Shown: positions 7,601-64,000 of the stretch, piece after piece
How positions within the stretch are numbered: the first letter of the stretch is position 1
How the letters are laid out: the number at the start of each line of letters is the position of its first letter
Made by a program: the position numbers and the translations under genes
The notes under the pieces: model-generated
The model's input: only the letters and a program-made list of their open reading frames with translations
Told to the model about the DNA's origin: nothing
Databases searched by the model: none
Source: Tachypleus tridentatus
Taxonomy: Eukaryota > Arthropoda > Merostomata > Xiphosura > Limulidae
DNA length: 64,000 bases
Reading direction: 5' to 3'
NCBI RefSeq assembly: GCF_004210375.1
Contig: NC_134834.1
Location: 18,159,027 to 18,223,026, forward strand

Positions 7601-10600
7601 TTGATGTAAGTTCTGGGTTGTCAAAGTTACTCTCGACCCACAAATGGATCAGTATTTCTTTATTTTTGATATATTTTATTCTATGGTTACTTAACCGCTT
7701 AGGCCCAGCATGGCCAAGTGGTTAAGGCACTCGACTCGTAATCTGAGGGTCGCGGGTTCGAATTTCCATCGCACTAAACATGCTCTCTCTTTCAGCCGTG
7801 GGGGCATTATAATGTGACGGTCAATCCTAATATTTGTTGGTAAAAGAGTAGCTTAAGAGTTGGCGGTGGGTGGTGATGACTAACTGCCTTCCCTCTAGTC
7901 TTACACTACTAAATTAGGGGCAGATAGCCTTCGAGTAGCTTTGCGCGAAACTCAAACACAAACAAAGAAATTTAACCGTTTTCCTATTTTACAAACTAGC
8001 TTATGGCTTCTAGATGTTTTAATAATTATACGTATATTTCAGACTACGCTAGATGAATGACGTTTAAAGTCGGATAAAAACATGTACACTTAATTTATCA
8101 TAACTTCTACTTACTAACAGGAAATGTATTAATTAACCAACAGGAAATGTATTGATTAACTAACAAAAATGTATTGATTAACTAACAGGAAATGTATTGA
8201 TTAACTAACAGGAAATGTATTGATTAACTAACAGGAAATGTATTAATTGACTAACAGGAAATGTATTGATTAACTAACAGGAAATGCATTAATTAAGTAA
8301 CAGGAAATGTATTAATTAACTAATAGGAAATGTAATAATTAACTAACAGAAAATATATTGATTAACTAATAGGAAATGTATTGATTAACTAACAGGAAAT
8401 GTATTAATTAACTACCAGGAAATGTATTGATTACTTCCTTCAACAAAAGTGTTCAGAAGGTAAAGGGATTTTATTACTCCCTGTAGATCAATCAAAGAAA
8501 TACAAATACCATTTCTTTCTCAACAATCTCGTGTAATATAAGTAAGTTCCCTTAGCTATTGATTTCATCCAACTGTTATTGATTTTATTGACACTAGAAA
8601 TGCAATCATTACAGGTTTAGCTGTACAGCTGGTGTCTACTTTCTCCATATACACCAACACCAAGAATCTCTTTAATGCAAAGTCTTCTGCAGAATATTTA
8701 CGTGCTCTGCATGGCTTAAAATTCTTCAGTATGAATTGGATCATTTTGGGACACACCTACCTATTTGTGAACTTCCAAGCCCTTCGTAAGTGTATATTCA
8801 TTGTGAAAGAACACTTCAAAGTTTTAATAAACAAATATATCGATTGGTGTTTACAATTCAATGTGCTGGATGGTGTTTGCCATTTAATATACCGGATATC
8901 TTTGTAATTGTTTTCTTAGGTAATCTCAAGAAAAGCACGAGATTTGCAAGTGACTTCGCCTTTCAAGCGATATCGAACGGTTTTGTTTCGGTAGACACGT
9001 TTTTCTTTGTGAGGTAAGACAAACACAAATAAAAAAAAAACGTTTCAACACTGAACACGTTCACCGTGTGAAAGAACATAGTACTGACATCTTATAAAAT
9101 TATCAATGTAACCTCACGAGCTTTCCCCTCATTGGCTCGTCAGTGTCGTCTGCCACAATGTTATCTCTTCATATATACGAATATACTCTTTGATAGTTAG
9201 CCTTAAAATGTTATTTTTGTATAAAGAAATAACGTGACCATCTTAACAATTGTTTACTGTAAAAGATTAAGCGTAAACTTACACAGGAAATGAACCATTA
9301 CATCAATTGTTTATTTCTAACCTGACAAATTCTCAGAAAAAGGGTATTTGAACATTTAAGATATGAATGAATCTAAAATATAAGTGGGTTTAAAGTATTC
9401 GCAAGTTCAAGATATTAGTTATTTAAAATACTAATAGATTTAAATTATCGATGAATTCTAAAGCTTGGTGGAATAAATGCAATGTTAAGCTAGCATCAAA
9501 AGAATCATTATAAATAGTTGTTTGATATGAATCCATATTCATTGTCTCGGACATCTTAAATAAATAACCTTGTTTATTTATTTGTGTACTGTTGGATCGT
9601 TTAAACGAGGCTTAGCAATTGAGAATAGAATGACAGTAATTAGAAAATGCCAGTCTGTCTCATTTTATTAATGTTCCTCACAAATAGCGGGTAAAAGTTT
9701 TAAATTTATATGTGCAATTTTATTTTATTTTTATATTCAATAAAGGCTCCTTGAAATACCTAAATATATTGTTGTTTCACACACAATTTATAGCTTTGAA
9801 ATGAACTGTTGTTCTAATCTATAGTGAAGATAATATGCTGTAATAAGTCAGGTTAATGTTTTGTGATTCTCAGGATCTCGTTTGTAGATTTAAAAGGGAT
9901 TTGGATTCAATTTTCAACTTAAATAGAAATCTTTTTAACTTAACTTTTCAAAGATCCAACTCAGAAAAGTTTCGTTCGTTTTAAATAACAAACTGCTAAA
10001 CCATTCTATTCTCCTTTGTTATTATGTGTCAAAAGTTAAATTGGAGATTATTTAAATACAGTAACATATATTTTCTGATATTCCTATTTTGAACACATAC
10101 TCAGATGGCTTACTTTAGATACATGTGATCCATACAAAATACTGTATCCATCCATTGACTTACTTCCGGTACTCGTCACCTGTATAAAATACTGTATCAA
10201 TCTATTGACTTACTTCCGATACTCGTCACCTGTATAAAACACTGTATCCATCTATTGACTTACTTCCGGTACTCGTCACCTGTATAAAATACTGTATCCA
10301 TCTATTGACTTACTTCCGATACTCGTCACCTGTATAAAATACTGTATCCATCTATTGACTTACTTCCGGTATACTCGTCACCTGTATAAAATACTGTATC
10401 AATCTATTGACTTACTTCCGGTATACTCGTCACCTGTATAAAATACTGTATCAATCTATTGACTTACTTCCGATACTCGTCACCTGTATAAAATACTGTA
10501 TCCATCTATTGACTTACTTCCGATACTCGTCACCTGTATAAAATTCTGTATCCATCTATTGACTTACTTCCGATACTCGTCACCTGTATAAAATTCTGTA

Positions 10601-13600: not shown

Positions 13601-16600
13601 ATTTTAGCTATTTACCCATTTATATTTTTTTTACCTCTTATTTTCCAGTTTGACCCCAACTCTCCTGATGATATCGTCTTTGGTTTTCCTTCTTCCTTTA
13701 CTAGGCTCCGGGCCTATTTGGCACGAGACACTGGATCCCCTGGTGGAGGGATGTAGAAACTGGTGGTGGACGAATGCTCTTCTTTTAAATAATTTTATAG
13801 GGGAAGTGCACCAGAAGGTAGGATCATTTTATTTTTGAGTTAAATACACTTGATTTATAAACGTGTCCATCAGTTGAGTACGGGCCTACTGAGTGAGCAC
13901 CATATGAGTCTGATCTATGAGTCAGTTAGTCTGATGAATATGCAGTCGTTCGTGAACCGTGTTTATGTGTATTTACGTTTATTTATAAAATGAAGACTAA
14001 TTTAAATTGTCCAATGAATGACAAATAAAATTTCTTAAATGCTCTCTCTTGCGCTGGATAATTTAACTCGTCAGTAACTTGAGTAAAATATAAAGAAGGT
14101 TGGTTGGTTTTGCATTTCGCGCAAAGCTACACGAGGGCTATCTGCGCTAGCCGTCCCTACTTTGGCAGTATAAGACTAGAGGGAAGGCAGCTAGTCATTA
14201 CTACTCACCACTAATTCTTGGGCTAGTCTTATACCAACGAATAGTGGGATTGATCGTTACATTATAACGCCCCCATGGTTGAATTGGCGAGCATGTTTGG
14301 TGTGACGGGGATTCGAACCCGCGATCTTCGGATTACGAGTCGAGTGCCTTGACCGCCTGCTATCCAAAGAAGAACTCTTAAGTAATATACGTAGCTCTGT
14401 ACAGCCTATGGCTCCACGTCATCAACAACTAGAAAATAATGTTTGCGATTTTCTATTAAAACCAAATGAATTTTGCTTGTGGGGAAACAAAAGAAAAAAA
14501 TTAAAACACTTGTGCGGCTGAGCTGTTTGTTCGTTCCAATAGAAACGCGCCCTCAGATGGGGTAATAGTAAGTCTACTTATTACAGAGTTAAAATTCGGG
14601 AATCAGTTCCCAGTGGTGGAAACAGCATATATTCCAATAGAAGCGACGCCTTCGTTGATGGTAAAATATCAGTAAATCCAGTGAAAAAATCCCAACTTCA
14701 TATCATGGAGAGTAAACTTACGCAGTGTGGTAACTTTCAACATCTAAATACAATTTAATTTTTTATAAAATAAAGTTCTGTAGTGACAAGCTGTTAGAAT
14801 CCATCATAAACCCGGCTGTCTGTGAGGTAGAATACTGGGTTTATTGTAGTTCGTGTTTCGTTTTATTGGGGATTCAATGTGGTTACGAAAGTTAAATCCC
14901 TGAATGTTCAGCGAGTGCCTTTATTCGAATTTATTTTCACGACTCTGACTTTCGTTGACAAAATTAATGACGAAACGTCAATATAGCCAGCCAAGAGTGA
15001 CTTAAGGTAGATTTAAACATTTTTCGACATTTGATGACAAAAATAGACCTTTATTGTTCCTCTGTTGTTTTTATACCCAAACTATCTGGTATGTTTATTC
15101 GGACTTACGAAGTTTAATTTTTTCTTCAAGAGGACTAGTGCTGACAGTACTCTGCACGAAATTCAAATCAAAATCCAAAGATCTAACTTCTGCGCGATTT
15201 TATTTGAAATTGTTGCCCACTTCCTAGAAAAATATCCATCTACTAAGCTCTCACCCGATTGATTTTAAAATATCCATCTACTAAGCTCTCGCCCGATTGA
15301 TTTTAAAATATCCATCTACTTAGCTCTCGCCCTATTGATTTTAAAATATCCATCTACTAAGCTCTCGCCCTATTGATTTTAGGCCCTGCATGGCCAGGTG
15401 GGTTAAGGCACTCGACTCGGAATCCGAGGGTCGCGGGTTCGAATCCCGGTTACACCAAACATGCTCGCCCTTTCAGCCGTGGGGGCGTTATAATGTGACG
15501 GTCAACCCACTATTCGTTGGTAAAAGAGTAGCCCAAGATTTGGCAGTGGGTGGTGATGACTAGCTGCCTTCCCTCTAGTCTTACACTGCTAAATTAGGGA
15601 CGACTAGCGCAGATAGCCCTCGTGTAGCTTTGCGGAAAATTCTAAACAAAGACACAATTTAATCTCGAAAGACCGGTTTTAAACCGCTTATTGGTCTGTA
15701 TAAAACGAATTTTCCTCAGTTGCTTTTGCTAATGCAATTTGTTTACGTTAGATTCTACGAAATATAACTTATTCGATCACATTTTCCGTTAAGTGTAGCC
15801 AACAAAAAAGCAGTTAGGGGTAATTTCCTTGTAAATCTGCAGCCAATCAATAGTATAATCTTAATAGATTTTATCAGTCCTATCTTGGTTTGCCTACTAC
15901 TATGCACCAGAAATTTCCTCAGTGTTAAGTTAAATGCTGACTTTGCCAGTAATAAAATAAAATATATATATATCCTGGTTCGAATCCCGGTTACACTAAA
16001 CATGCTCGCCCTTTCAGCCCTAGGGTCGTTATTATGTGACCGTCAATCCATGTGTTTGGTTAAAGAGTAACTGTCTAGGCCATGGATTTGTTGCCTCTGA
16101 ACAGCAGTTCAAAATTAGGAATGACAGTACTCGAACCTTGGCTCTCTGACATAATCATTCGTCTCTTGTTTAGCACAAGGTTTCGTTCAGACATAGTTGA
16201 GCTTAGGCCTTAACACACTCACAGAAACAAAACCAATTGTGTTTGGTAGTTTCACAATCACACAAATGTTTGATGCGCTGGATAACAAATGATATAAAGG
16301 TAAATATGTTTACACTTCCTGTACTTTTCTATTAAAAAAATCCTCACAGTAAGATTTATGTTATCTAGTTTCAATAGTGTGGATAGTTTATATTTATATA
16401 TATAAGTAAATTATTATTTATATATTTATTTGTGCCTTTAGAGACAAATCTGTAAAATGCTATCGAGCCTCACGTTTTTGAGTTATAAGTTTGACCAAAT
16501 AGGTTTATTTTTATATACATTGGCCAGGTGGGTTAAGGCGTGTGACTCGTAATCCGAGGGTCGCGGGTTCGAATCCCCGTCGCACCAAACATGCTCGCCC

Positions 16601-42900: not shown

Positions 42901-45900
42901 ACATAAAGAAAACATATGCATTTTGCATTGTTAGACTCAACCACTTATTTGAGTAGAGCTTCGAAAGATGAAAATAAGAAAAGGGAAAAAAAACAAACAT
43001 TTTTAGCATTTAGTAGGGGAAAATGTGAACACTATGAAATTAGCCTAAATACTAGCTGGTCAAAAGTTTAAGACCATAATGAAAAGAAGCGTTAATCGGT
43101 AAACATGTAACGAAATTTAGTCATTTGTGTTCAAGCATAAGCGTTGTCAACATCTCCCACTGACATCTGCTGTGTTACATTGGATAAAAACATGGCAAGC
43201 GCTAAAATGTTAACAAAGTTTGAACGTGGCAGAATTGTTGAGCTGCAAAAGCAAGGTATCTCTTAACGTGCCATCACTGGTGAGATTAGGCGAAGTAAAA
43301 CTGCTGTTGTAAATTTCTTAAAAGACCCTGAGGGTTATGGAACGAGAATTTCAAATGGTCTGCCCAAGAAAATTTCGCCGACGTTGAGGAGGATTCGACG
43401 GGTTATCCAGCAAGACACCAGCCGATCGTCGAACCACATTAAGGCCCTTACAGACACAGAATGCAGTCCAAGACCAATAAGACGGCATCTACGAGAGAAA
43501 GGCTTTAAAAACCGTAAACGTCTTCAAAGGCCACACCTCCTTCCACACCACGAAACAGCTCGGTTAAACGTTGCTGAGAAGCACCAAACATGGGGCGTAG
43601 AAAAGTGGACGAAGGTTTTGTTCTCTGATGAAAAAAAAATTAACCTGGATGGTCCAGATGGCTTCCAACGTTACTGGCACGATAAGGATATCACACCGGA
43701 GACATTTTCTACACGACACAGTAGAGGAGGTTCCATCATGATCTGGGGTGCTTTCTCCTTCTATGGAACAATGGAGCTTCAGGTTATACAGGGGCGTCAA
43801 ACAGCAGCTGGCTACATTGGCATGTTGGAGAGAGCATCCTTGTTGACTGAAGGCCCTCGCTTGTTTGGAAATGACTGGATCTTTCAGCAGGACAACGCTG
43901 CAATCCACAATGCCCGCAGGACAAAGGACTTTTTCATGGCAAATAACGAGATTCTTTTGGACCATCCAGCGTGTTTCCCGAACTGAACCCCATTGAAATT
44001 TTTTTTTGGGAGTGGATGGGAAGGGAAGTCTATAGGAATGGACGTCAATTCCAAACAGTGCATGATCTTCGTGAAGCCATCTTCACCACTTGGAATAACA
44101 TACCAGCCAGCCTTCTGAAAACACTTATATCGATCATGTCAAAGTGAATGTTTGCAGTTACTCGCAATGACGGCCGTGCAACTCACCACTGAGACCTCTT
44201 GTTGGGCATTTCCTACCCTGTTTAGGACTTCTTGTTGGTATGATCTTAAACTTTTGACCCGCTATTATTTAGGCTAATTTCATAGTGTTCACATTTTCCC
44301 TATTAAATACTAAAAAAAGTTTTTTTTTATTTTCCCTTTTCTTATTTTCATCTTTCGAAGCTCTACTCAAATAAGTGGTTGAGTCTAACAACGCAAAATG
44401 CATATTTTTTCTTTATGTTCATTAGCTTTGAGGTTTTGGCCAGCAGTGTGCATTGGCAACTATTTCATTAAACTAGACTGCTAATATTTCATTAATTAAT
44501 TAGGAAAACAGCGTCATCACTTTCTTTGACATATCTCAACAAAACGTGCGCCCCCCCACAAAAACCCGTTATTTCATATTATTATATACTGCATTATTTG
44601 TTGTTGTTTTTAGTGCAAAGCTCCACGATGGATTATTTGCATTGTGTTCACCGAGGGGAATCAAACTTCGGATTTTACCATTGGAAGTCTGTAAACTTAC
44701 CACTGATCTTCCGCGGTTGGAGATGTACTGTAGTAATGGAGATCGCATGATAATTTGCAAGCAAGTAACTTTTCCCCATTCATTTCAATTAAACACACAT
44801 TTTAAACACCTAGAGGCAATACGATTGGGAAAAACGTATGAAACAATATTGTGAATTCGAAACGTATTTGTAAACAACCAATAATATATACATACTTGAC
44901 AAGAGGAATGATCACCAATAGCGAAAGCACAAAGAGCTGCATGTCACAGCAGAGGTACCAGGTATGATGCAGACACTGAAAAATAAAGTTTGTTATTCAG
45001 GATAGTCCAGATAAGTCGAAAATACCAATAATCACTTCTGATTATGACCTTAATAGTGGCACTTCTGCCTTTATTACATAACACTTAGATTACAAGTTAT
45101 AAAACTATCTTTAAGTGAAATAATATGAAGTATTCGAAAATTTAGAGAACTGCGTGACTCAGTGGCTTCATGTCTTGGGCTAATAATCGGATGGCTGGGA
45201 GTTCGAATTTTGCTGTTGTGTTCTTAATTTCGTTTGGCATTCTTCTTCAGGACCCCTATGCCAGTGTAGACAACCTTGGGAGTGTAATAACAATGCTAAC
45301 GTAGCTAAATATTGACCGTCGAGGTTGTGGGGTCATCACGGTCCGGAGTGACAATCTTCAATGTAAGACTGACCTCTATGGACACTGTAAATATTTTGTT
45401 ACAGCCTCGCAGTTCACAAGACGAGATATTGGACACAAGGTTCTACAGTTCATGTTCTTGAGGACGTTATTGTCGTCAACAATACTCGGGGAATTTCCTT
45501 TTGAGAAAGACTATTGTCTATATATCTTCCTCCAGTGTCCTGCCTCGGCAACGAATTAGGAGATGTTCTTCTGTAAGAATGGAACCATCAACCAATGATC
45601 ATTATCCAAATGCTCATCAGGTACTTGTGCAGGCGATGCCAGACAATGGCCAATGCTTTGGATGGAGAAATGGATTGATAACATTTGTTGTTTTTCTTCC
45701 GATCAGTTAAAAAAAAATGTCTGTTCATTTTCTGAAGATGCGCCATCTTGTGAAGCACCTTCTTTCATGTTGACTTGTGTAAAGACAACTCGAAAAAACG
45801 TGAGTAAAGTTTGTTTTAAAGATGATGAAAACGACATAAAACACACAGCTGTCCATCATTTGCTATCTCCATTGCAAAGAGAGACTCCTGTCGCATCCCG

Positions 45901-48900
45901 ATAAGTACACTTGTCAGAGCAGGAATACTAGGTATTAATACGTATTAATACTTTAAATACTTAGTCACCAGCACAATAAAAAGAAACGCTAAACACCGTG
46001 AACAGTCTGTTAAAGTGAAAATATGAAAATACGAATCATAGAATCAACGTCGAGGAACCACAGGTTTTGCAAAAAGGTCACAAATGTGCAAAGCCTATTT
46101 TTTCATTAATTACTTTCAAATTCTTACTTTTAAAGCAACATGTGTAATTCATATAATATTTTTCTATTCTTCTTTCTTGGTATTGGTCAAGCTAGAAACC
46201 TTTAATCTTCTCTTAATTAAGTGCTCGAGGTGAAAATAACGTTTTAAAAATCATTGGTACGTCCTCTCTCTGACGTTTAAATAAATACGTCATATATTTG
46301 TATGACATCACAAGATGACAGCACTTCCGTGCGTGGTATGAATCTTGTTTAACATTGCTTTAATTATAACGTGTAATACTTTGGAGAAATTGGTCAAAAT
46401 TATAGTTCATCAATGATTCACACTGAGAATTTGTTGCACAACCAAAAGATGTTATATCCTAGCCGGTAGGCCTAACGGGCTCAGATATTCGGTACTGTAT
46501 ATATCAAATATAATATTTTTCTCAAATTCTAGTGTATTATTATTCAATTTTGCTCACAATTTCTTATGAATTCAAGGTAAAATTAACCGAATATTACTTA
46601 TAACACATGGTGTCTTCAAATAAGACATTTTAGGCTTAACTACACACAGAATATACAAATAAACAAAACGTTTTGAACATTACACGATAGAAATACCTCT
46701 GCTGTATGTAATTAAATAACGTTTCACTTATATTTCATTTCCATAATATATTTAAAATGTAACGCTAAGAACCTAATATATTTCTCAGTACGTTAGATAA
46801 TTAAAGAGATTTTGACAGTGAAAGGTAGGAAGACAGTTGTTAATGTTCACTGAAAATATAAAATCCGTAAATTTCACTAATAAACATTATGTTTCAGATA
46901 AGACAATAATTTTGTTGTTGATTATTAAAGGGACAATTCGGGGGTAATTTTTTAATACAAATTAGGTAAAATAGAGGTTACAATATATAAAAGGAGAAAC
47001 CCCAATTACGAAAGACAAAAATAAACAAATTTGCAAATAAAAATTGAATCATTAAAGCTAATTGTAGAGTATTATATACTAAAAGACGCCATTTTTTGTG
47101 ATAAAAATCACGTACATTGCAGAGACATGATTTTGTATCTGATATAGAGAGTTCAAAATTATTGTAAAAAAACCCACAGTTTTCGTGATTTTTAGCACAA
47201 GATATAGACCTATTGATTCAAAGTTATTTAATAGCTTTCGCGGTTTAAGCTGTAACTTATAATGAATATATTATTCTCAAGTGGTATACAACTAAACATT
47301 AGCACTATGTTTCACTCCTCCGATAAAGTTAACTAAGTACCAATCATTAGTTTCACTCCTCCGATAAAGTTACCTAAGTACCAATCGTTTGTTTCACTCC
47401 TCCGATAAAGTTAACTAAGTACCAATCATTTGTTTCACTCCTCCGATAAAGTTAACTAAGTACCAATCATTTGTTTCACTCATCCAATAAAGTTAACTAA
47501 ATACCAATCATTTGTTTCACTCCTCCGATAAAGTCCACTAAATATCAACCCTCTGTTTCACTCCTCCGATATATAAAGTCCACTAAACATCAACCCTCTG
47601 TTTCACTCCTCCAATAAAGTCCACTAAATACCAACCATCTGTTTCACTCCTCTGATAAAGTCCACTAAATATCAACCATCTGTTTCACTCCTCTGATAAA
47701 ATCCACTAAATATCAACCCTCTGTTTCACTCCTCCAATAAAGTCCACTAAATGTCAACCCTCTGTTTCACTCCTCCGATAAATTAAAGTCCACTAAATAC
47801 CAATCATTTGTTTCATTCCTCCAAGAAATTTAAATAAATATAAATCCTCTGTTTCACTCCTCCGATAAAGTCCACTAAATATCAACCTTCTGTTTCACAC
47901 CTCCGATAAAGTCCACTAAATATCAACCCTCTGTTTCACTCCTCTGATAAAGTCCACTAAATATCAACCCTCTGTTCACTCCTCCGATAAAGTCCACTAA
48001 ATATCAACCTTCTGTTTCAATCCTCCGATAAAGTCCACTAAATATCAACCCTCTGTTTCACTCCTCTGATAAAGTCCACTGAATATCAACCCTCTGTTTC
48101 ACTCCTCTGATAAAGTCCACTAAATATCAACCCTCTGTTTCACTCCTCCAGTAAAGTTAAAGCAAATACAAACCGTTTGATCTAATCTTCCAATAAAGTT
48201 AAAGTAAATACAAACCGTTTGATCTAATCTTCCAATAAAGTTAAAGTAAATACAAACCGTTTGATCGATTCTTCCAATGAAGTTGTTCACAAAAGCAACA
48301 TTTTTCCACCACCACTTTTTACACATATCCACCTGCTCATCTAACACATCGTGCCACACAGGTCCAGATCCAAGAAGAGGAAGAAGGAGCACAGAAGCTG
48401 TGACTATCATGAAAGTTGGCGTCAAACTGGAATAGACGAAGAATTGAGCCGTAAATTAAATAAGATAGTTAAGAGTATGAAAATACGTATGTGTATATTG
48501 AAAATTGTGAGAATTATCTGTAGTTAGATCATTACCTGATGGTGAAGATGGTGATACGTAGTTCTTGGAATTATCTTTAGTTAGATCATTACCTGTTGGT
48601 GAAAATGGTGATACGTAGTTCTTGGAATTATCTTTAGTTAGATTATTGCCTGTTGGTGAAAATGGTGATACGTAGTTCTTGGAATTATCTGTAGTTAGAT
48701 CATTACCTGATGGTGAAGATGGTGATACGTAGTTCTTGGAATTATCTTTAGTTAGATCATTACCTGTTGGTGAAAATGGTGATACGTAGTTCTTGGAATT
48801 ATCTTTAGTTAGATTATTGCCTGTTGGTGAAAATGGTGATACGTAGTTCTTGGAATTATCTTTAGTTAGATTATTACCTGTTGCTGAAAATGGTGATACG

Positions 48901-51900
48901 TAGTTCTTGGAATTATCTTTAGTTAGATCATTACCTGTTGGTGAAAATGGTGATACGTAGTTCTTGGAATTATCTTTAGTTAGATTATTACCTGTTGGTG
49001 AAGATGGTGATACGTAGTTCTTGGAATTATCTTTAGTTAGATGATTACCTGTTGGTGAAAATGGTGATACGTAGTTCTTGGAATTATCTGTAGTTAGATC
49101 ATTACCTGTTGGTGAAAATGGTGATACGTAGTTCTTGGAATTATCTTTAGTTAGATTATTACCTGTTGCTGAAAATGGTGATACGTAGTTCTTGGAATTA
49201 TCTTTAGTTAGATCATTACCTGTTGGTGAAAATGGTGATACGTAGTTCTTGGAATTATCTTTAGTTAGATTATTACCTGTTGGTGAAGATGGTGATACGT
49301 AGTTCTTGGAATTATCTTTAGTTAGATGATTACCTGTTGGTGAAAATGGTGATACGTAGTTCTTGGAATTATCTGTAGTTAGATTATTACCTGTTGGTGA
49401 AAGTGGTGATACGTAGTTCTTGGAATTATCTTTAGTAAGATTATTACCTGTTGGTGAAAATGGTGATACGTAATTCTTGGAATTATCTTTAGTTAGATCA
49501 TTACCTGTTGGTGAAGATGGTGATACGTAGTTCTTGGAATTATCTTTAGTTAGATGATTACCTGTTGGTGAAAGTGGTGATACGTAGTTCTTGGAATTAT
49601 CTGTAGTTAGATTATTACCTGTTGGTGAAAGTGGTGATACGTAGTTCTTGGAATTATCTTTAGTTAGATTATTACCTGTTGGTGAAAGTGGTGATACGTA
49701 GTTCTTGGAATTATCTTTAGTTAGTTTATTACCTGTTGGTGAAAGTGGTGATACGTAGTTCTTGGAATTATCTTTAGTAAGATTATTACCTGTTGGTGAA
49801 AATGGTGATACGTAATTCTTGGAATTATCTTTAGTTAGATCATTACCTGTTGGTGAAGATGGTGATACGTAGTTCTTGGAATTATCTTTAGTTAGATCAT
49901 TACCTGTTGGTGAAAATGGTGATACGTAATTCTTGGAATTATCTTTAGTTAGATTATTACCTGTTGGTGAAGATGGTGATACGTAGTTCTTGGAATTATC
50001 TTTAGTTAGTTTATTACCTGTTGGTGAAAGTGGTGATACGTAGTTCTTGGAATTATCTTTAGTTAGCTTATTACCTGTTGGTGAAAATGGTGATACGTAG
50101 TTCTTGGAATTATCTTTAGTTAGATCATTACCTGTTGGTGAAGATGGTGATACGTAGTTCTTGGAATTATCTTTAGTTAGATCATTACCTGTTGGTGAAA
50201 ATGGTGATACGTAGTTCTTGGAATTATCTTTAGTTAGATTATTACCTGTTGGTGAAGATGGTGATACGTAGTTCTTGGAATTATCTTTAGTTAGATCATT
50301 ACGAATTATAATAGTGAAGTATTCTTAGAGGCATGTAGAACAATATGCCGTTCATTGTATTGATATAATTTCCGAATATAACTTGTTATTCTATCTCTTG
50401 TCAAAATGTTGGAGCTAAAAAAAAACTCATTCAATCCAATCAGCTGTAAAAAATTGTAATGTTTTAGCGAGAATAAACAAATATTTCCACGTGATTTATG
50501 ACACGTGCTCACGTTCAAGTTTCATACGTCATGGAACTGTAAACTGATGAAATTCCTAAGCTCACCTTAGTTTAAACCGATAGCAGTGTATCTGTAATTT
50601 TACTTTTAGTTTCAACTAAGAGGGGTGATCTCCCGAATCGTACCTTAATTTTAACATGTAGCGACGTATCTTTAATATTACCTTACTTTTAATCGACAGA
50701 GATAATATCACTAATCTTAACTACGTTTTAACCAGTGGACGTGAATCCACCATCTTACTTTAGTTTGAATTAATAGACGTGTATCCGTAATGTTTTCTTA
50801 ATTTTAATTGCTAGAGGTCCATTTTTAACCTTACCTAAGTTTCAACCGATAGAAGGTGCATACCTATTATTACTTCAGTTTAACTAGTAATATCATTAGA
50901 TTTGTTTTAATTTATAATAAAGATACCTTCACATATCTTTCTTTTATTTTTTTCTAAACTGCTCCCATTAGCAGTCCATCTCTGGACTTCTTACGGCTCA
51001 GCATGGCCAGGTGGGTAAAGGCGCTCGATTTGTCATCTGTGAGTCGCGGGTTCGAATCCCGGTCGTACCAAACATGTTCATCCTTTCAGCCGCGGGGGCG
51101 TTATAATATTACGGTCAATCGCACTATTCGTTGGTAAAAAAGTAGCCCAAGAGTTGGCAGTGGGTGGTGATGATTAGCTGCCTTCCATCTAGTCTTTCAC
51201 TACTATATTAGGGACGGCTAGCGCAGATATCGCTGATGTAACGTTGCGCAAAATTCAAAAACAAACAAACAAATCCTGGACCTCTAGTGACGTTTCATAA
51301 CTTTTTTTTTTTTTACGAATAGTAATATTTTCTGAAGTATTAGGTTTTAATGGACTACCAAAAGCCGTAAAATTATAAAATTCACAATTCTTTAGTAAAT
51401 TTTAGGCTTAAATGCGTTCACAAATATTTATAAATTGCTATCGAGCCAACAGCTAAAACATTAAACGTCCCATAAAATAGCAACATATGTATTTATAAAC
51501 TATGAATATTACTGAATGTATCCTTAACAATTTCGTTTTTTAATTCTGACTAAAAATGTTCGAGAAAGTGGACTGAAACTGAACAAGTCAGCAGTGACGT
51601 CGCTAAGAGTTAAAAGCAAATAAAGTTGGGGCTCGTGCCCTGTAAGCACGGAAAGTTTTGACGTTTCGATATGATATCAAACATAGTCTTCTATTATGAT
51701 TTTTCAAGACACAAACTAGGGATGCGGGCACTTAGTTTTAACCAAAATATGTGCCTCTATAATTTTACTTGAGTTTTAACCAGTGTAGTTGCATTTCTAA
51801 TTTTACCTTAGGTTTAACCAGTAAAGTTGCATCTCTAATTTTACTTTAGTTTTAACCAGTAAAGTTGCATCTCTAATTTTACTTTAGTTTTAACCAGTAA

Positions 51901-60900: not shown

Positions 60901-63090
60901 AGATTAAAGATGGCTCTTCAGGATCTATAACAAAAGATCATTCATTAAAATAAAAAACAATTCTGTCTGGCTTCATTTCACCTGTTTGTTAACAATTGAC
61001 GGTCAACAGACCAGAACAGAAGTTAAACGAACGAGGTACTCTGGTCAGTCATTTCTAGATTTTGGGAATAAACACCCTTGTAACTAGCACACTTTAAATA
61101 AGTTATTTTACCCTTAATATAATGCAATTAACCTGGCTCAAGCGATAAGACAAGACATTTAAAATGGAACTTGAGATCCTAACATAAATTTGGACGTGTA
61201 AAATAAAACTTGAGACGGTGATTCATTCAGCTTTATTAAACCTAGATGAGTAACATAACATAGTTACAGGTTCTCGAGAAGACCGTATAATGAGATAAGT
61301 AACAGACTTACGGAACGCTTGAAAGTTGACGTAGATATAGGTGTGTCCTAAGATGACCCAATTGATACTGAAAACCTTCATACCATGTAAAGCACGCAAA
61401 GTTTTTGAAGAAGAACTGACATTAAAGAGGTTCTTGGCATTTGAATAAACGGAGAAAGTGGTCATCAACTGTACTGCTTGACCTGTAAGAATATTAGTTT
61501 AAAAAATTATATAACAACTAAATAAACAACTGAGGGACGTTCCTAGTATCCACTGTTTTAAAAATAAAGTGGTTTAATCATTTCAACTGTTTAAAATAAT
61601 TGTGTGAAAACTTTAAAAGTAAATTATTAACACGTCTAAGGGAATAGTAGTTGTTCCCTATAAAATCAGAATATACTCTCAAATGCAGAGTGGTACACTA
61701 AAGAAATCCAAAACTACAAGTAACACAACACGTCCTTCTTCGGGGTTAAATTGTCATTTACATGGTTTCTGGTGTAGAACATACTGATCTAGGTAACTAG
61801 CAGCTTTTATTGTTGAATACAATCCTTTGAATAGAAATTACGCAATATTTGATTGGACATAATGTGTTCTAAATAGCGCACGTATTTGTTTCTGATGTTG
61901 CAAATATTATTTTAAATGGTGATGTCTTTGGTTAGAATGTTCAATATCCTACTACGTATAAAACTGATGTGTTTTTCTTTTTATAAAAAGCAAATGGTTT
62001 CAAAGTTGAAAGTTCCTGTTGTAAGAAACAATGCTTAGAGTAGAAACTGTCTTGTTCCTGTTGTATGAAGAAGTGTTTAGAGTAGAAACTGTCTAGTTCC
62101 TGTTGTATAAAACAGTGTTTAGAGTAGAAACTGTCTTGTTTTTGTTGTATGAAGCAGAGTTTAGAGTAGAAACTGTCTTGTTCCTGTTGTAAGAAACAAT
62201 GTTTAGAGTAGAAACTGTCTTGTTTTTGTTGTATGAAGCAGTGTTTAGAGTAGAAACTGTCTTGTTCCTGTTGTATGAAGCAGTGTTTAGAGTAGAAACT
62301 GTCTTGTTTTTGTTGTATGAAGCAGTGTTTAGAGTAGAAACTGTCTTGTTCCTGTTGTATGAAGCAGTGTTTAGAGAAGAAACTGTCTTGTTTTTGTTGT
62401 ATGAAGCAGTGTTTAGAGTAGAAACTGTCTTGTTCCTGTTGTATAAAACAGTTTTTAGAGTAGAGAGTATCTTGTTCCTGTTGTAAGAAACAATGTTTAG
62501 AGTAGAAGGTTTCTTGTTCCTGTCGTAAGAAACAGTGTTTAGAGTAGAACTGTCTTGTTCCTGTTGTATGAAACAGTGTTTAGAGTAGAAACTGTCTTGT
62601 TTTTGTTGTATGAAGCAGTGTTTAGAGTAGAAACTGTCTTGTTCCTGTTGTATGAAGCAGTGTTTAGAGTAGAAACTGTCTTGTTTTTGTTGTATGAAGC
62701 AGTGTCTAGAGTGGAAACTGTCTTGTTTTTGTTGTATGAAGCAGTGTTTAGAGTAGAAACTGTCTTGTTTTTGTTGTATGAAGCAGTGTTTAGAGTAGAA
62801 ACTGTCTTGTTCCTGTTGTATGAAGCAGTGTTTAGAGTAGAAACTGTCTTGTTTTTGTTGTATGAAGCAGTGTCTAGAGTGGAAACTGTCTTGTTTTTGT
62901 TGTATGAAGCAGTGTTTAGAGTAGAAACTGTCTTGTTCCTGTTGTATGAAGCAGTTTTTAGAGTAGAGAGTATCTTGTTCCTGTTGTAAGAAACAGTGTT
63001 TAGAGTAGAAAGTGTGTTAATTCTGTTGTAAGAAAGAGTGTTTAGAGTAGCAACTAAGACGTTTGATTTTGTTGTAAGATGGAGCTTACC
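33856..63090 (-). CDS. Gene 2: NRF-6-like acyltransferase-3 membrane protein, inverted paralogue of gene 1 (5' incomplete)
   Basis: Recognised exons in transcript order: exon end at or above 63090 (repeated array), 61312-61482, 54869-54961, 48258-48426, 44896-44975, 41461-41586, 40616-40736, 38628-38814, 36575-36717 and 33856-33999. Splice phases agree with gene 1 at each visible junction except where the 94-nt exon is expected between 61312 and 54961, which I could not find. Joining across that gap directly would reach a stop within four codons. The visible protein carries [62 protein letters not shown] and LEVYFIHP, so the acyltransferase-3 domain is well conserved. Same predicted role and membrane location as gene 1. 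Upstream exons lie beyond 64000. Whether it is functional depends on the missing exon and on how splicing handles the 66-bp donor array. Confidence 0.85.
34268..34390 (+). repeat. SINE-B copy, last intron of gene 2
   Basis: GGTGACACAGCTGTATGTCT head; B box damaged; ends in AAACAAACAAAAC. Confidence 0.65.
34391..35633. other. Gene 2 last intron, unique part
   Basis: A 64-codon frame at 34764-34958 (-) is not recognisable. Nothing else stands out. Confidence 0.5.
35634..36135. repeat. 59-bp minisatellite in the last intron of gene 2 (about 9 copies)
   Basis: Unit contains GTAACCATGGGTGAAGAAGG, TAGACTTGT and CGTACAACTACTACT. The last intron of gene 1 also carries a minisatellite (49 bp), but the unit sequences do not match. 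Confidence 0.9.
36236..36511 (+). repeat. SINE-A copy, last intron of gene 2
   Basis: Full length and antisense to the gene, about 64 nt beyond a donor. Confidence 0.9.
36537..36570. repeat. CAA/AAC microsatellite
   Basis: About 34 bp of nearly pure (AAC)n, a few bases beyond the donor of exon 36575-36717 on the gene strand. Confidence 0.8.
36575..36717 (-). CDS. Gene 2 exon: [21 protein letters not shown] segment
   Basis: Acceptor TGTTTGTTAG, donor TTT|GTAAGT, 143 nt. Encodes [20 protein letters not shown] and [27 protein letters not shown] microsatellite starts just inside the intron at about 36537-36570. Confidence 0.93.
37004..37277 (+). repeat. SINE-A copy, gene 2 intron
   Basis: Full length; A box altered (GGCATAGACAGGTGG). 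Confidence 0.88.
37652..37847 (+). repeat. Head-truncated SINE-A, gene 2 intron
   Basis: Begins in the body at about TTTTAGCCGTGGGAGCGTTA; no tRNA-like head. Confidence 0.85.
38334..38603 (+). repeat. SINE-A copy, gene 2 intron
   Basis: Complete; its tail ends about 25 bp from exon 38628-38814, inside the first bases of the intron on the gene strand. Confidence 0.9.
38628..38814 (-). CDS. Gene 2 exon: [10 protein letters not shown] and [11 protein letters not shown] segments
   Basis: Acceptor ATATATAG, donor GGAG|GTAGGT, 187 nt. Encodes [26 protein letters not shown], and [20 protein letters not shown] shadow frame here opens with a different ATG; the splice phase and the paralogue fix the correct frame. 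Confidence 0.92.
39314..39552 (-). mobile_element. 239-bp inverted-repeat element with a mariner-like transposase C-terminus
   Basis: TA flanks both ends (39312-39313, 39553-39554). Ends share GTAAGTCCCTACCCAT in inverted orientation. The - strand inside reads [20 protein letters not shown], then [20 protein letters not shown] and a stop. That pattern is the C-terminal end of a mariner/IS630-type transposase seen widely in arthropods. It is an internally deleted derivative that cannot move by itself. Lies in the gene 2 intron between exons 38628 and 40616. Confidence 0.8.
40218..40350 (+). repeat. Degenerate SINE-A joined to an inverted SINE-B
   Basis: GGCGTGGCCTGGTGGTAAGT head and TTAGCCGTGGTGGTGTTACA body survive; cut off by the next element. 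Confidence 0.6.
40350..40468 (-). repeat. SINE-B copy, gene 2 intron
   Basis: GAGCCCATTGAAGGGAATCG and TGTACTAGCGGGGG mark body and head. Confidence 0.75.
40616..40736 (-). CDS. Gene 2 exon: [16 protein letters not shown] motif
   Basis: Acceptor TCATATAG, donor AAC|GTAAGT, 121 nt. Encodes [20 protein letters not shown] and [14 protein letters not shown]. The upstream intron (40737-41460) is filled by a TCTA/TCTG-type repeat. Confidence 0.92.
40795..41352. repeat. TCTA/TCTG-rich compound repeat in gene 2 intron
   Basis: Tetranucleotide-like runs (TCTATCTATCTGTTTACCTG, TTTACAAATCTATTTG) organised into 44-100 bp higher units. Overlapping open frames here (up to 177 codons rich in Y, L, S, C) reflect the repeat. 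Fills most of the 724-nt intron. Confidence 0.88.
41461..41586 (-). CDS. Gene 2 exon: membrane helix and VNPDL loop
   Basis: Acceptor GTTTTTCAG, donor CTGAG|GTAATG, 126 nt. Encodes [20 protein letters not shown] and [14 protein letters not shown]. Confidence 0.9.
41865..41975 (-). repeat. Degenerate tRNA-derived SINE, gene 2 intron
   Basis: GGGGAATCAAATCTCGAATT then ATTTCCGAAACCAACCGCTG resembles the SINE-B B box, middle and head. It explains most of a 94-codon open frame here. Confidence 0.4.
42236..42500 (+). repeat. Old, degenerate SINE-A, gene 2 intron
   Basis: All parts recognisable but with many substitutions (GATCGCGAATTCGAATTCTA at the B box). One of the oldest copies in the window. 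Confidence 0.75.
42605..42798 (+). repeat. Head-truncated SINE-A, gene 2 intron
   Basis: Body and tail only, 100 bp upstream of the DD34E transposon. Confidence 0.82.
42885..44448 (+). mobile_element. Tc1-like DD34E transposon, nearly complete
   Basis: Long terminal inverted repeats of about 200 bp begin CACTGCTGGCCAA at the left and end in TTGGCCAGCAGTG at the right. They also share GTTAGACTCAACCACTTATT, CTTCGAAAGATGAAAATAAG and TCAAAAGTTTAAGA. TA flanks the left end; the right flank is TG, so the target duplication is imperfect. Sits in the gene 2 intron between exons 41461-41586 and 44896-44975. Confidence 0.88.
43192..44147 (+). pseudogene. Tc1-like transposase with one stop and one frameshift
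   Basis: ATG at 43192 opens [20 protein letters not shown]; an in-frame TAA interrupts at 43264. The frame then continues to 43984 with [12 protein letters not shown] (first catalytic D) and [10 protein letters not shown] (second D). A frameshift near 43975 moves the end into another frame with [10 protein letters not shown], whose E lies 34 residues after the second D, so the triad is DD34E. Length about 318 codons overall, normal for Tc1. Only two lesions indicate a recent copy, but this copy is inactive. Probably arrived with its element, unrelated to gene 2. Confidence 0.85.
44600..44715 (-). repeat. SINE-B copy, gene 2 intron
   Basis: GTGCAAAGCTCCACGATGGA tail and GAGGGGAATCAAACTTCGGA box. 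Explains the short open frames found here. Confidence 0.65.
44896..44975 (-). CDS. Gene 2 exon: [10 protein letters not shown] helix
   Basis: Acceptor TTTTTCAG, donor AA|GTATGT, 80 nt. Encodes [20 protein letters not shown]. Phase 0 to 2, as in gene 1. Confidence 0.9.
44976..47307. other. Gene 2 intron, long unique part
   Basis: Contains the possible SINE at 45148 and two unrecognised overlapping frames at 45501-45904 (+). From 45950 to 47300 it is strongly AT-rich with no feature. Confidence 0.5.
45148..45245 (+). repeat. Possible third tRNA-derived SINE family
   Basis: GCGTGACTCAGTGGCTTCAT (A-box-like) and GGGAGTTCGAATTTTGCTG (B-box-like) are spaced like a tRNA gene, but the body differs from SINE-A and SINE-B. 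One copy only, so the family is a guess. Confidence 0.35.
47308..48257. repeat. 41/42-bp minisatellite seeded from the end of gene 2 exon 48258-48426 (about 22 copies)
   Basis: The two units next to the exon (about 48161-48257) repeat its last codons (FIGRLDQT) plus GTTTGTATTT. Further units lose the coding match but keep the frame TTTCACTCCTCCGATAAAGT and CCACTAAATATCAACCCTCT. Divergence rises with distance from the exon, which suggests growth from the exon-intron junction. Confidence 0.85.
48258..48426 (-). CDS. Gene 2 exon: [11 protein letters not shown] / WWW loop, 3' end tandemly duplicated
   Basis: Acceptor TTCCAG, donor ACG|GTTTGT, 169 nt. Encodes [34 protein letters not shown] and [10 protein letters not shown]. 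The last eight codons with the donor recur twice in the next 84 nt downstream on the gene strand (48161-48257), and a decayed 41-bp array continues beyond. The donor choice is therefore uncertain; I chose the first because it gives the same exon length as gene 1. Confidence 0.9.
48511..50302. repeat. 57-bp minisatellite in gene 2 intron (about 31 copies)
   Basis: Unit contains TTGGAATTATCTTTAGTTAG, ATCATTACCTGTTGGTGAAA and ATGGTGATACGTAGTTC. On the gene 2 strand each unit reads CTAAC, then 44 nt, then TTTTCACCAACAG directly followed by GTAATG. Sits between exons 54869-54961 and 48258-48426, ending about 85 nt from the latter. Confidence 0.93.
50567..50932. repeat. Degenerate outlying units of the 38-bp minisatellite
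   Basis: CTTAGTTT/TTAACC...GTA/ATCT..AATTTTAC phrases recur about every 38-60 bp with many substitutions. They look like old, no longer homogenised copies of the array at 51731-54801; a SINE has since landed between at 50995-51272. Confidence 0.6.
50995..51272 (+). repeat. SINE-A copy within the old 38-bp array, gene 2 intron
   Basis: Full length; separates decayed units on the left from the homogeneous array on the right. Confidence 0.9.
51731..54801. repeat. 38-bp minisatellite in gene 2 intron (about 80 copies)
   Basis: Unit built from TAGTTTTAACCAGTAGAG, TTGCATCTCTAATTTT and ACTT. Variants (AGATGCA, GTAAAG, TTTTCC) recur in the same order about 720 bp apart (compare the GCAGCCC variant at 52855 and 53576), showing block duplication. 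Begins 68 nt past the donor of exon 54869-54961. Confidence 0.93.
54869..54961 (-). CDS. Gene 2 exon: [15 protein letters not shown] segment
   Basis: Acceptor TCTCAACAG, donor CG|GTAAGT, 93 nt. Encodes [20 protein letters not shown] and ends LHRYI(R), parallel to gene 1 exon f. It enters in phase 2, which requires the missing upstream exon. Confidence 0.9.
55763..55900 (+). repeat. Possible fourth tRNA-derived element
   Basis: GGGCCAGGCGTGACATATGT and GGATCGAAGGTTGAACTCAC resemble A and B boxes; the following CAGTCATTCGGCTGAAAACA body is unlike the other SINEs. Single copy. Confidence 0.35.
56102..56226 (-). repeat. SINE-B copy, gene 2 intron
   Basis: TATCTGTGCTCTACTCACCA, GTATCGAAACCCGGTTTTCA and CCGCTGAGCCACTGGGG. 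Preceded by a triplicated 28-bp TTGTTGTTGTTTTAAACTAA motif at 56050-56125. Confidence 0.78.
57063..57321 (-). repeat. SINE-A copy, gene 2 intron
   Basis: About 20 bp missing in the body (CAACTATTACCAACG). Confidence 0.9.
57703..57986 (+). repeat. SINE-A copy, gene 2 intron
   Basis: Full length with a long AAACAAACAAACAAA tail; one of the better preserved copies. Confidence 0.9.
58443..58702 (+). repeat. SINE-A copy, gene 2 intron
   Basis: Head shortened around the B box (GGGTCTAATCCCTGTCGCAC). Confidence 0.88.
59645..59750 (+). repeat. SINE-B copy, gene 2 intron
   Basis: CCAGTGGCACAGCGGTATGT head; about 15 bp of the middle missing. Confidence 0.7.
59815..59935 (-). repeat. SINE-B copy, gene 2 intron
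   Basis: Opposes the copy at 59645, forming an imperfect inverted pair. Confidence 0.65.
60255..60523 (+). repeat. SINE-A copy, gene 2 intron
   Basis: Full length apart from a shortened tail junction (GATAGCTTTGCGCGAAATTA). Confidence 0.88.
60775..60868 (-). repeat. Degenerate SINE-B, gene 2 intron
   Basis: AAGCACAAAGCTACACAATG tail and CTGTACCACTTGGTTGGGGG head. Confidence 0.5.
61312..61482 (-). CDS. Gene 2 exon: GHTY motif, start of acyltransferase-3 domain
   Basis: Acceptor TTCTTACAG, donor TTCC|GTAAGT, 171 nt as in gene 1. Encodes [20 protein letters not shown] and [20 protein letters not shown]. The histidine is kept. Confidence 0.92.
62012..63054. repeat. 42-bp minisatellite in gene 2 intron (about 25 copies)
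   Basis: Units contain GTTTAGAGTAGAAACTGTC and CTTGTT(CC/TT)TGTTGTATG. Adjacent to the 66-bp donor array, separated by about 30 nt. Period 42 is a multiple of three, giving long open frames on both strands with no resemblance to a known protein. On the gene strand each unit has CAACAG and GACAG, resembling acceptors. Confidence 0.9.
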
Positions 63091-64000
63091 TTGTTTTCGG
63101 AATGGCTGATCCTTCCACCAGATGTAATACAATTCTAGTATCGTTCCCAGCTTACCTTGGTTTTGGATTGGCTGATCCTTCCACCAGATGAAAAAATACT
63201 AGCATCGTACCGAGCTTAACTTGTTTTCCGATTTGCTGATCCTTCCACCAGATGTAATACAATTCTAGTATCTTTCCCAGCTTACCTTGTTTTCCGATTG
63301 GCTGATCCTTCCACCACATGTAATACAATTCTAGTAAAGTTCTCAGCTTACCATGTTTTTGGATTGGCTGATCCTTCCACCAGATGTAATACAATTCTAG
63401 TATCGTTTTTAGCTTATCTTGTTTTTGGATTGGCTGATCCTTCCACCAGATGTAATACAATTCTAGTAAAGTTCTCAGCTTACCATGTTTTTGGATTGGC
63501 CGATCCTTCCACCAGATGTAATATAATTCTAGCATCTTTCCCAGCTTACATTGTTTTTGGATTGGCTGACCCTTCCACCAGATGTAATACAATTCTAGTG
63601 AAGTTCTCAGCTTACCATGTTTTTGGATTGGCTGATCCTTCCACCAGATGTAATACAATTCTAGCATTGTTCCCAGCTTACCTTGTTTTCCGATTGGCTG
63701 ATCCTTCCACCAGATGTAATACAATTCTAGTATCGTTCCCAGCTTAGTTTATTTTCCAATTGGCTGTGCCTTCCACCAGATGTAATACAATTCTAGTAAA
63801 GTTCTCAGCTTACCATGTTTTTGGATTGGCTGATCCTTCCACCAGATGTAATACAATTCTAGTAAGGTTCTCAGCTTACTATGTTTTTGGATTGGCTGAT
63901 CCTTCCACCAGATGTAATACAATTCCAGTAAAGTTCTCAGCTTACCATGTTTTTGGATTGGCTGATCCTTTCACCAGATGTAATACAATTCTAGCATCGT
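63084..64000 (-). repeat. 66-bp tandem array made of a gene 2 exon end plus its 5' splice donor (about 14 copies, runs off the window)
   Basis: On the gene strand each unit encodes LELYYIWWKDQPIQKQG and then GTAAGC. The coding part matches gene 1 exon c (IIELFYKLWKDQSVQKQ) and stops at the same splice position and phase. The period is 66 bp = 22 codons, so the frame stays open through the array. The donor core GTAAG is kept in most units; units near 63413 and 63742 have lost GT and the one near 63214 reads GTTAAG. The last unit ends at 63090 followed by ordinary intron. The array continues past base 64000. Confidence 0.9.

Follow-up and report, generated by a model that had tools for sequence, protein, structure and literature searches.

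A 66-bp minisatellite spanning an exon end and its 5′ splice site in a predicted acyltransferase gene of the horseshoe crab

Minisatellites that cover exon–intron boundaries form a class with earlier examples in genes of amphioxus and humans. Here we describe such arrays in the genome of the horseshoe crab Tachypleus tridentatus, centred on a 66-bp unit at the end of exon 3 of a gene predicted from its sequence to encode a membrane acyltransferase (gene 2). The stretch of DNA that was analysed, referred to as the window, comprises 64,000 nucleotides of contig C10 (NC_134834.1) in a genome assembly of 2.17 Gb and 205 contigs. The most likely reading of the 66-bp array is that a repeat has expanded, for the most part within an intron, and that no purpose-built splicing switch is involved.

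Several related systems are described in the literature. In amphioxus, tandem repeats termed 'mirages' extend over exon–intron boundaries in Adh3 and in the globin genes BflGb6 and BflGb9 (PMC3087553). Intron 18 of human ABCA7 contains a variable-number tandem repeat (VNTR) whose first bases are the GT of the exon 18 donor, and retention of one unit has been seen; the figures given are 14 ± 6 and 2 ± 1%, which we take to refer to alternative splicing of exon 18 and to retention of a unit, respectively (PMC5954066). Unit retention in ABCA7 was independent of VNTR length, whereas skipping of the next exon rose and expression fell with length (PMC5954066). Human genes of segmental duplications carry internal tandem repeats at exon–intron boundaries (PMC2812944), and introns derived from tandem arrays were reported by Zhuo et al. 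2007, as cited in PMC3087553. Earthworm metallothionein has intronic minisatellites, with no boundary arrays in the available part of that report (PMC12783039).

The horseshoe crab locus most resembles the mirages. In both, minisatellite-like tandem copies span an exon–intron boundary, one edge of the array holds the intact authentic exon, splice signals persist in many copies but not in all (here GT in 22/25 copies), and 5′ as well as 3′ boundaries are affected (here by donor arrays and by an acceptor duplication on contig C3). The present locus differs in belonging to an arthropod, in its 25 copies of 66 bp and in the occurrence of two arrays in one gene, and it is known from one DNA assembly. 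With the ABCA7 VNTR it shares an array that begins at the authentic donor GT; ABCA7 uses the donor of one further unit at a low level. However, the ABCA7 unit has 25 bp and starts at the donor, and leakage by one unit shifts the frame, whereas the unit in gene 2 includes 59 nt of exon and has a length that is a multiple of three, and its first four leak products would be in frame. The segmental-duplication repeats and the introns of Zhuo et al. are alike in that alternative introns or new ones can arise from tandem copies at a boundary, but the gene 2 array shows no new intron. A literature search with little subscription coverage returned, judged by title, no earlier report of boundary arrays in horseshoe crabs.

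The 66-bp array at exon 3 of gene 2

The array and the exons around it are listed below, together with the corresponding exon of gene 1, a second gene of the same family in the window. Window-equivalent numbering continues beyond 64000 into the flanking sequence past the window end (L008 and L009), slashes mark exon–intron boundaries, and copy numbers were determined with Tandem Repeats Finder (TRF).

From beyond the window end down to ~36.5 kb or farther, minus strand: gene 2
Window-equivalent 64766–64672, minus strand: gene 2 exon 3, intact, 95 nt, acceptor tatacag, coding for GLLGTILVLLTASTVLELYYIWWKDQPIQKQ
63083–64000, minus strand: in-window part of the 66-bp exon-end/5′-splice-site array, copies 12–25 of 25 (TRF 13.9 copies)
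61312–61482, minus strand: gene 2 exon 4, acceptor ttacag/GTCAAG, donor C/GTAAGT; the acceptor exon for the array donors
6793–6887, plus strand: gene 1 exon 3 (AVLGVFAALLITGTIIELFYKLWKDQSVQKQ), 95 nt, single donor CAAG/GTACGA, no array

An initial annotation of the window had described a 66-bp tandem unit made of an exon end and its 5′ splice site, with a period that is a multiple of three, and this was confirmed both by TRF and by the sequence itself. The count of about 14 copies given there holds for the window; the full array has 25 copies (TRF 25.0) and reaches window-equivalent 64727 (L008 4754, C10:18223753). The array does continue past the window, as had been noted, and the exon start, which was then unseen, is now seen to belong to an intact exon 3 of 95 nt. 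The initial annotation had considered that an intact upstream exon with an exclusively used donor outside the array would speak against it. Such an exon exists, but its donor, AAG/GTAAGC, is that of copy 1 and lies inside the array. Gene 2 exon 3 has its authentic end in copy 1, copies 2–25 are located in intron 3, and the array is flanked on both sides by other sequence.

Each unit consists of 59 nt of exon tail and 7 nt of intron (GTAAGCT); the unit boundary was placed after GTAAGCT because the last copy diverges from the unit past this point. The coding part had been recognised correctly as an exon end, but with 59 of the 66 nt it is longer than the 14 codons first assigned to it. The exon tail reads GTILELYYIWWKDQPIQKQ and resembles GTIIELFYKLWKDQSVQKQ of gene 1 and GTVIELFYIKWKDQPIEKQ of a paralogue on contig C3; read on the minus strand within the window, the array encodes LYYIWWKDQPI. 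In agreement with the annotation, the homologous exon end occurs a single time in gene 1, and exon 3 has the same length and the same end phase in gene 2 and gene 1. Phase 1 and the proposed join to exon 4 also fit. A single donor is present at the end of exon 3 in gene 1 and in two C3 paralogues, from which the exon 3 array is absent. A genome search with the 66-bp array gave seven matches, all at its own locus, and lack of a match elsewhere is no proof of rarity. The copies differ from one another, with a mean identity of 0.87–0.90 at lags 1–12, and copies 3 and 4 are identical.

Donors are spaced 66 bp apart throughout, except for a distance of 64 bp from copy 23 to copy 24. Read from the start of exon 3, the frame is open through donors 1–5, and the first in-frame stop occurs in copy 6; one such stop lies ahead of donor 6, and by donor 15 their number has reached six. 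A 2-bp deletion puts donors 24 and 25 out of phase. The assumption that any donor would keep the frame thus fails for all but donors 1–5 of the 25. A coding minisatellite that is read through as a single exon is ruled out by the in-frame stops from copy 6 onward. GT is lost in copies 15, 20 and 23, which account for the loss of G in 3/14 donors inside the window, and GTAAG is kept in 11/14, as expected from the statement that most copies retain it. Most donors are good matches to U1. Donor scores are based on a generic donor matrix and on U1 duplex energies, and they rank copies only.

No coding or donor constraint was seen among copies 2–25 when variant types and block diversity were tested. 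The 43 variant types comprise 8 synonymous and 35 non-synonymous ones (copy 24 entered this count without its first 20 columns owing to the deletion), giving a synonymous fraction of 0.186 against 0.227 expected without constraint; a non-synonymous change is present as early as copies 2–4. Mean diversity is 0.086 in the donor block (−1 to +5), compared with 0.113 elsewhere, and the block is ordinary in that 33/61 six-column blocks (the donor block counted) are as conserved or more so. Donor positions +2 to +7 do not vary across the 24 copies; at position +1 three changes are seen, which introduced three distinct bases. These counts leave the proposal of a splice-site array under constraint unsupported. 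Taken together, the observation of an array is real, and the functional reading first attached to it is mostly not supported.

Boundary arrays at exon 7 and elsewhere in the genome

Exon-boundary arrays recur in this genome. New here are a second donor array in gene 2, at exon 7, an array at a P450 exon, another at exon 7 of a further gene of the acyltransferase family and, in a paralogue, a duplicated acceptor:

48258–48426, minus strand: gene 2 exon 7, 169 nt, weak donor ACG/GTTTGT
47308–48284, minus strand: exon-end/donor array of gene 2 exon 7, 24 units
13650–13818, plus strand: gene 1 exon 7, 169 nt, single donor AAG/GTAGGA, no array
C12:80553130 (C12:80552564–80553158; L089, L092): P450 exon donor array, 45 bp between donors, 13 copies including the authentic one, exon ends NCIG
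C2:144500412, with an inverted copy at C2:144854547 (L123, L153, L154): acyltransferase-family exon 7 donor array, 51 bp, 12 donor-like sites
C3:105641989 and C3:105702790 (L032, L033): exon 4 acceptor duplication, 56 bp twice in tandem with 28 nt of exon included, in both C3 copies

The donor of gene 2 exon 7 (GTTTGT) scores 2.8, compared with 11.0 for exon 3. The first three units of its array have 42 bp (27 nt of exon tail and 15 nt of intron), and the rest are mostly diverged 41-bp units that follow without a break. The 42- and 41-bp units are related, because their alignment score of 13 exceeds the maximum of 7 reached in 300 shuffles (mean −1.2). Among the 20 in-window exons of gene 1 and gene 2 that were checked, the ends of which are partly approximate, an array overlaps gene 2 exon 7 only; gene 2 exon 3 lies outside the window. 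Upstream of gene 2 exon 7 on the minus strand, a 57-bp array of 31 copies (window 48511–50302) is located inside a 622-codon open frame, and its unit contains CAACAGGTAATAAT, which would provide possible cryptic donors in gene 2 intron 6. By eye, neither this array nor a 38-bp array after exon 6 displayed kinship to exon sequence.

We surveyed TRF arrays crossing exon ends at acyltransferase exons 3 (4 genes), 4 (30 loci and 11 donor windows) and 7 (12 loci and 24 donor windows), at P450 exons (20 loci and 45 donor windows) and in transporter families (20 windows). The P450 exons were hand-picked from 104 matches, mainly ones without inner stops; the sugar and ABC transporter families yielded few usable exon ends. 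Donor arrays were found in 4/166 cases, or in 2/164 when the two gene 2 arrays that prompted the search are excluded, denominators that are upper bounds since they contain near-copy windows, some without a visible exon end, chiefly in the transporter set. A 14-bp, 2-copy match in L151 was excluded from the count.

The P450 array is open in frame throughout; the −1 G is missing in 12/12 extra copies and GT is lost in four of them. At the C2 locus, each of the two inverted copies, which are 99.8% identical over 865 bp, carries 12 CAG/GTAAGC-like sites. The frame is open over 301 residues, and all 12 donor-like sites match CAGGTAAGC with at most two mismatches. The upstream acceptor of the C3 duplication, if used, would shift the frame.

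Genes and repeats around the array

Gene 1 and gene 2 face each other, and both belong to the Acyl_transf_3 family (PF01757), of a type that we take to be NRF-6-like. With exons 3–8 of both genes and at a Pfam cut-off of 31, gene 2 scores 49.8 bits (E 3.5e-13) and gene 1 scores 41.7 bits. The exon search in gene 2 covered exons 3–12, and the ten exons found are open, with splice signals present where read. Exon 4 of gene 2 is 67% identical over 64 amino acids to the open reading frame of gene 1 that contains exon 4. The remaining features of this part of the locus are as follows.

4.5 kb or before to ~20 kb, plus strand: gene 1
8615–8785, plus strand: gene 1 exon 4
62012–63055, minus strand: 42-bp minisatellite in the remainder of gene 2 intron 3, sequence unlike the 66-bp unit (TRF 24.9 copies)

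Exon 4 of the acyltransferase family has 43 or more matches in the genome. No retrocopy that might stand in for RNA was seen among the 43, the next best match after gene 2 itself being 70% identical. Matches to the family often come as equal-score pairs, commonly on opposite strands of one contig (C3, C2, C10, C6); near-identity was seen for two such pairs (C3, C2), which may be inverted duplications or an assembly effect. The coagulogen family (PF02035) has 19 matches in the same genome, compared with none in 14 control genomes, which marks the genome as that of a horseshoe crab.

Minisatellites and other arrays with a period of at least 10 bp occupy 19,566 of the 64,000 window bases. Past the window end, a minisatellite with a 48-bp unit and a length above 14 kb (L008 5332–9901 and all of L009) lies ~540 bp upstream of gene 2 exon 3. 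An open frame of 239 codons at window 43267–43986 is presumably transposase-like, with what we take to be a Tc1/mariner look, and many copies across the window appear, by the same kind of judgement, to be tRNA-derived and similar to short interspersed nuclear elements.

Readings of the array and their significance

By analogy with the amphioxus arrays, we consider it likely that the 66-bp array is a minisatellite of the 'mirage' kind, in which donor 1 would be used by most transcripts, the other copies would be removed with the intron and donors 2–5 would be minor. The last 59 nt of exon 3 and the first 7 nt of the intron would have been duplicated in tandem and then expanded to 25 copies; donor 1 stays unaffected when copies are added on the intron side, which may be why the expansion has been tolerated. 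In most transcripts, splicing from donor 1 would yield the normal 95-nt exon, and the remaining copies would leave with intron 3. A minor fraction spliced from donors 2–5 would gain 22, 44, 66 or 88 extra residues, in frame, after the first transmembrane segment and ahead of the next linker, and use of donor 6 or a later one would introduce a stop codon, with nonsense-mediated decay or a truncated protein as the expected outcome. Dominance of donor 1 with minor leakage to the next donors is suggested by both ABCA7 and the mirages. The intact exon 3 with its donor as copy 1 and a length equal to that in gene 1, the single donor of this exon in gene 1 and the two C3 paralogues, the in-frame stops from copy 6 onward, the lack of coding or donor constraint among copies, the minisatellite-dense locus and the like architecture at gene 2 exon 7, the P450 exon and the C2 exon support this account.

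Several observations weigh against it. Donors 2–4 score equal to donor 1, and donor 5 pairs with U1 at −11.0 kcal/mol, compared with −9.5 kcal/mol for donor 1; donor strength alone therefore gives donor 1 no preference. GT and the −1 G are kept in 9/9 proximal copies and in 10/16 distal ones (one-sided p 0.045), with the split at nine copies picked after inspection of the table. The periods of the four donor arrays (66, 42, 45 and 51 bp) are all multiples of three (chance 0.012), as are those of 8/26 other arrays (Fisher one-sided p 0.018); the 26 remain from 32 rows after removal by hand of the 66-bp array itself, of four mirror copies and of the latter half of the 48-bp array. Without the two gene 2 arrays the chance is 0.11, and the exon 7 array has a period of 42 bp in its first three units only. 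The multiple-of-three periods are suggestive only, a lead rather than a result; together with the retention of proximal donors they would be compatible with the extra donors being used to some extent. In ABCA7, moreover, the strong rise in next-exon skipping and the fall in expression with VNTR length indicate that such arrays are perhaps not harmless (PMC5954066).

If the extra donors were used, non-triplet arrays could have been removed by selection, and the survivors would constitute a recurrent class of length-variable in-frame exon ends in the horseshoe crab, in which copy number tunes proteins and new introns are seeded. We regard this possibility as doubtful, and it is weakened because the additional donors of the P450 array are either weak or gone. 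It is unlikely, too, that the gene 2 array itself is a functional donor array, in which splicing is apportioned among the first five donors in a regulated manner, 0–4 extra 22-residue units are added after the first helix and the period of three is selected. Donors 1–5 are indeed in phase, strong and open, and this proposal would accommodate the better retention of proximal donors, the periods of all four arrays, the open frames of the P450 and C2 arrays and the match of 12/12 C2 sites to CAGGTAAGC with at most two mismatches. However, protein-level constraint is not seen and copies 2–4 have changed non-synonymously, the 12 extra P450 copies all lack the −1 G and four lack GT, and the gene 2 exon 7 array abandons its 42-bp period after three units. 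In addition, an open unit of such size is expected by chance in 35–51% of cases, the number of arrays is four, two of which had started the search, and gene 1 and the C3 pair have no exon 3 array.

Quite unlikely is the view that gene 2 is decaying and that the arrays are marks of lost constraint. The weak donor of exon 7 and the two overgrown exon ends would agree with it, but the ten exons found are open with splice signals where read, and the Acyl_transf_3 match lies above the Pfam cut-off and is stronger than that of gene 1. We consider it very unlikely that the array acts as a decoy, its 21 further GT donors competing for U1 and slowing splicing or causing nonsense-mediated decay, and so cutting gene output. 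The GT in 22/25 copies, the in-frame stops carried by donors 6–25 and the lower expression and increased next-exon skipping with longer ABCA7 VNTRs (PMC5954066) are consistent with such a role. Against this, the reports state that ABCA7 VNTR length had no effect on nonsense-mediated decay or unit retention (PMC5954066) and that regular splicing is undisturbed in the amphioxus mirages (PMC3087553). The donor columns, moreover, are without constraint. Tandem arrays are frequently misassembled and the copy number comes from one assembly, but an artefact or false expansion is highly improbable given copies that differ from one another and other sequence at both array ends.

The present arrays extend exon-boundary minisatellites to a chelicerate, in which they recur: two in gene 2, one in a P450 gene, one in another acyltransferase-family gene and one case of a duplicated acceptor. 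A natural gene with dozens of near-identical donors one after another constitutes a ready experiment on spliceosome choice among equal 5′ splice sites, and a genome-wide comparison of array period with reading frame would reveal from DNA alone whether extra donors are used.

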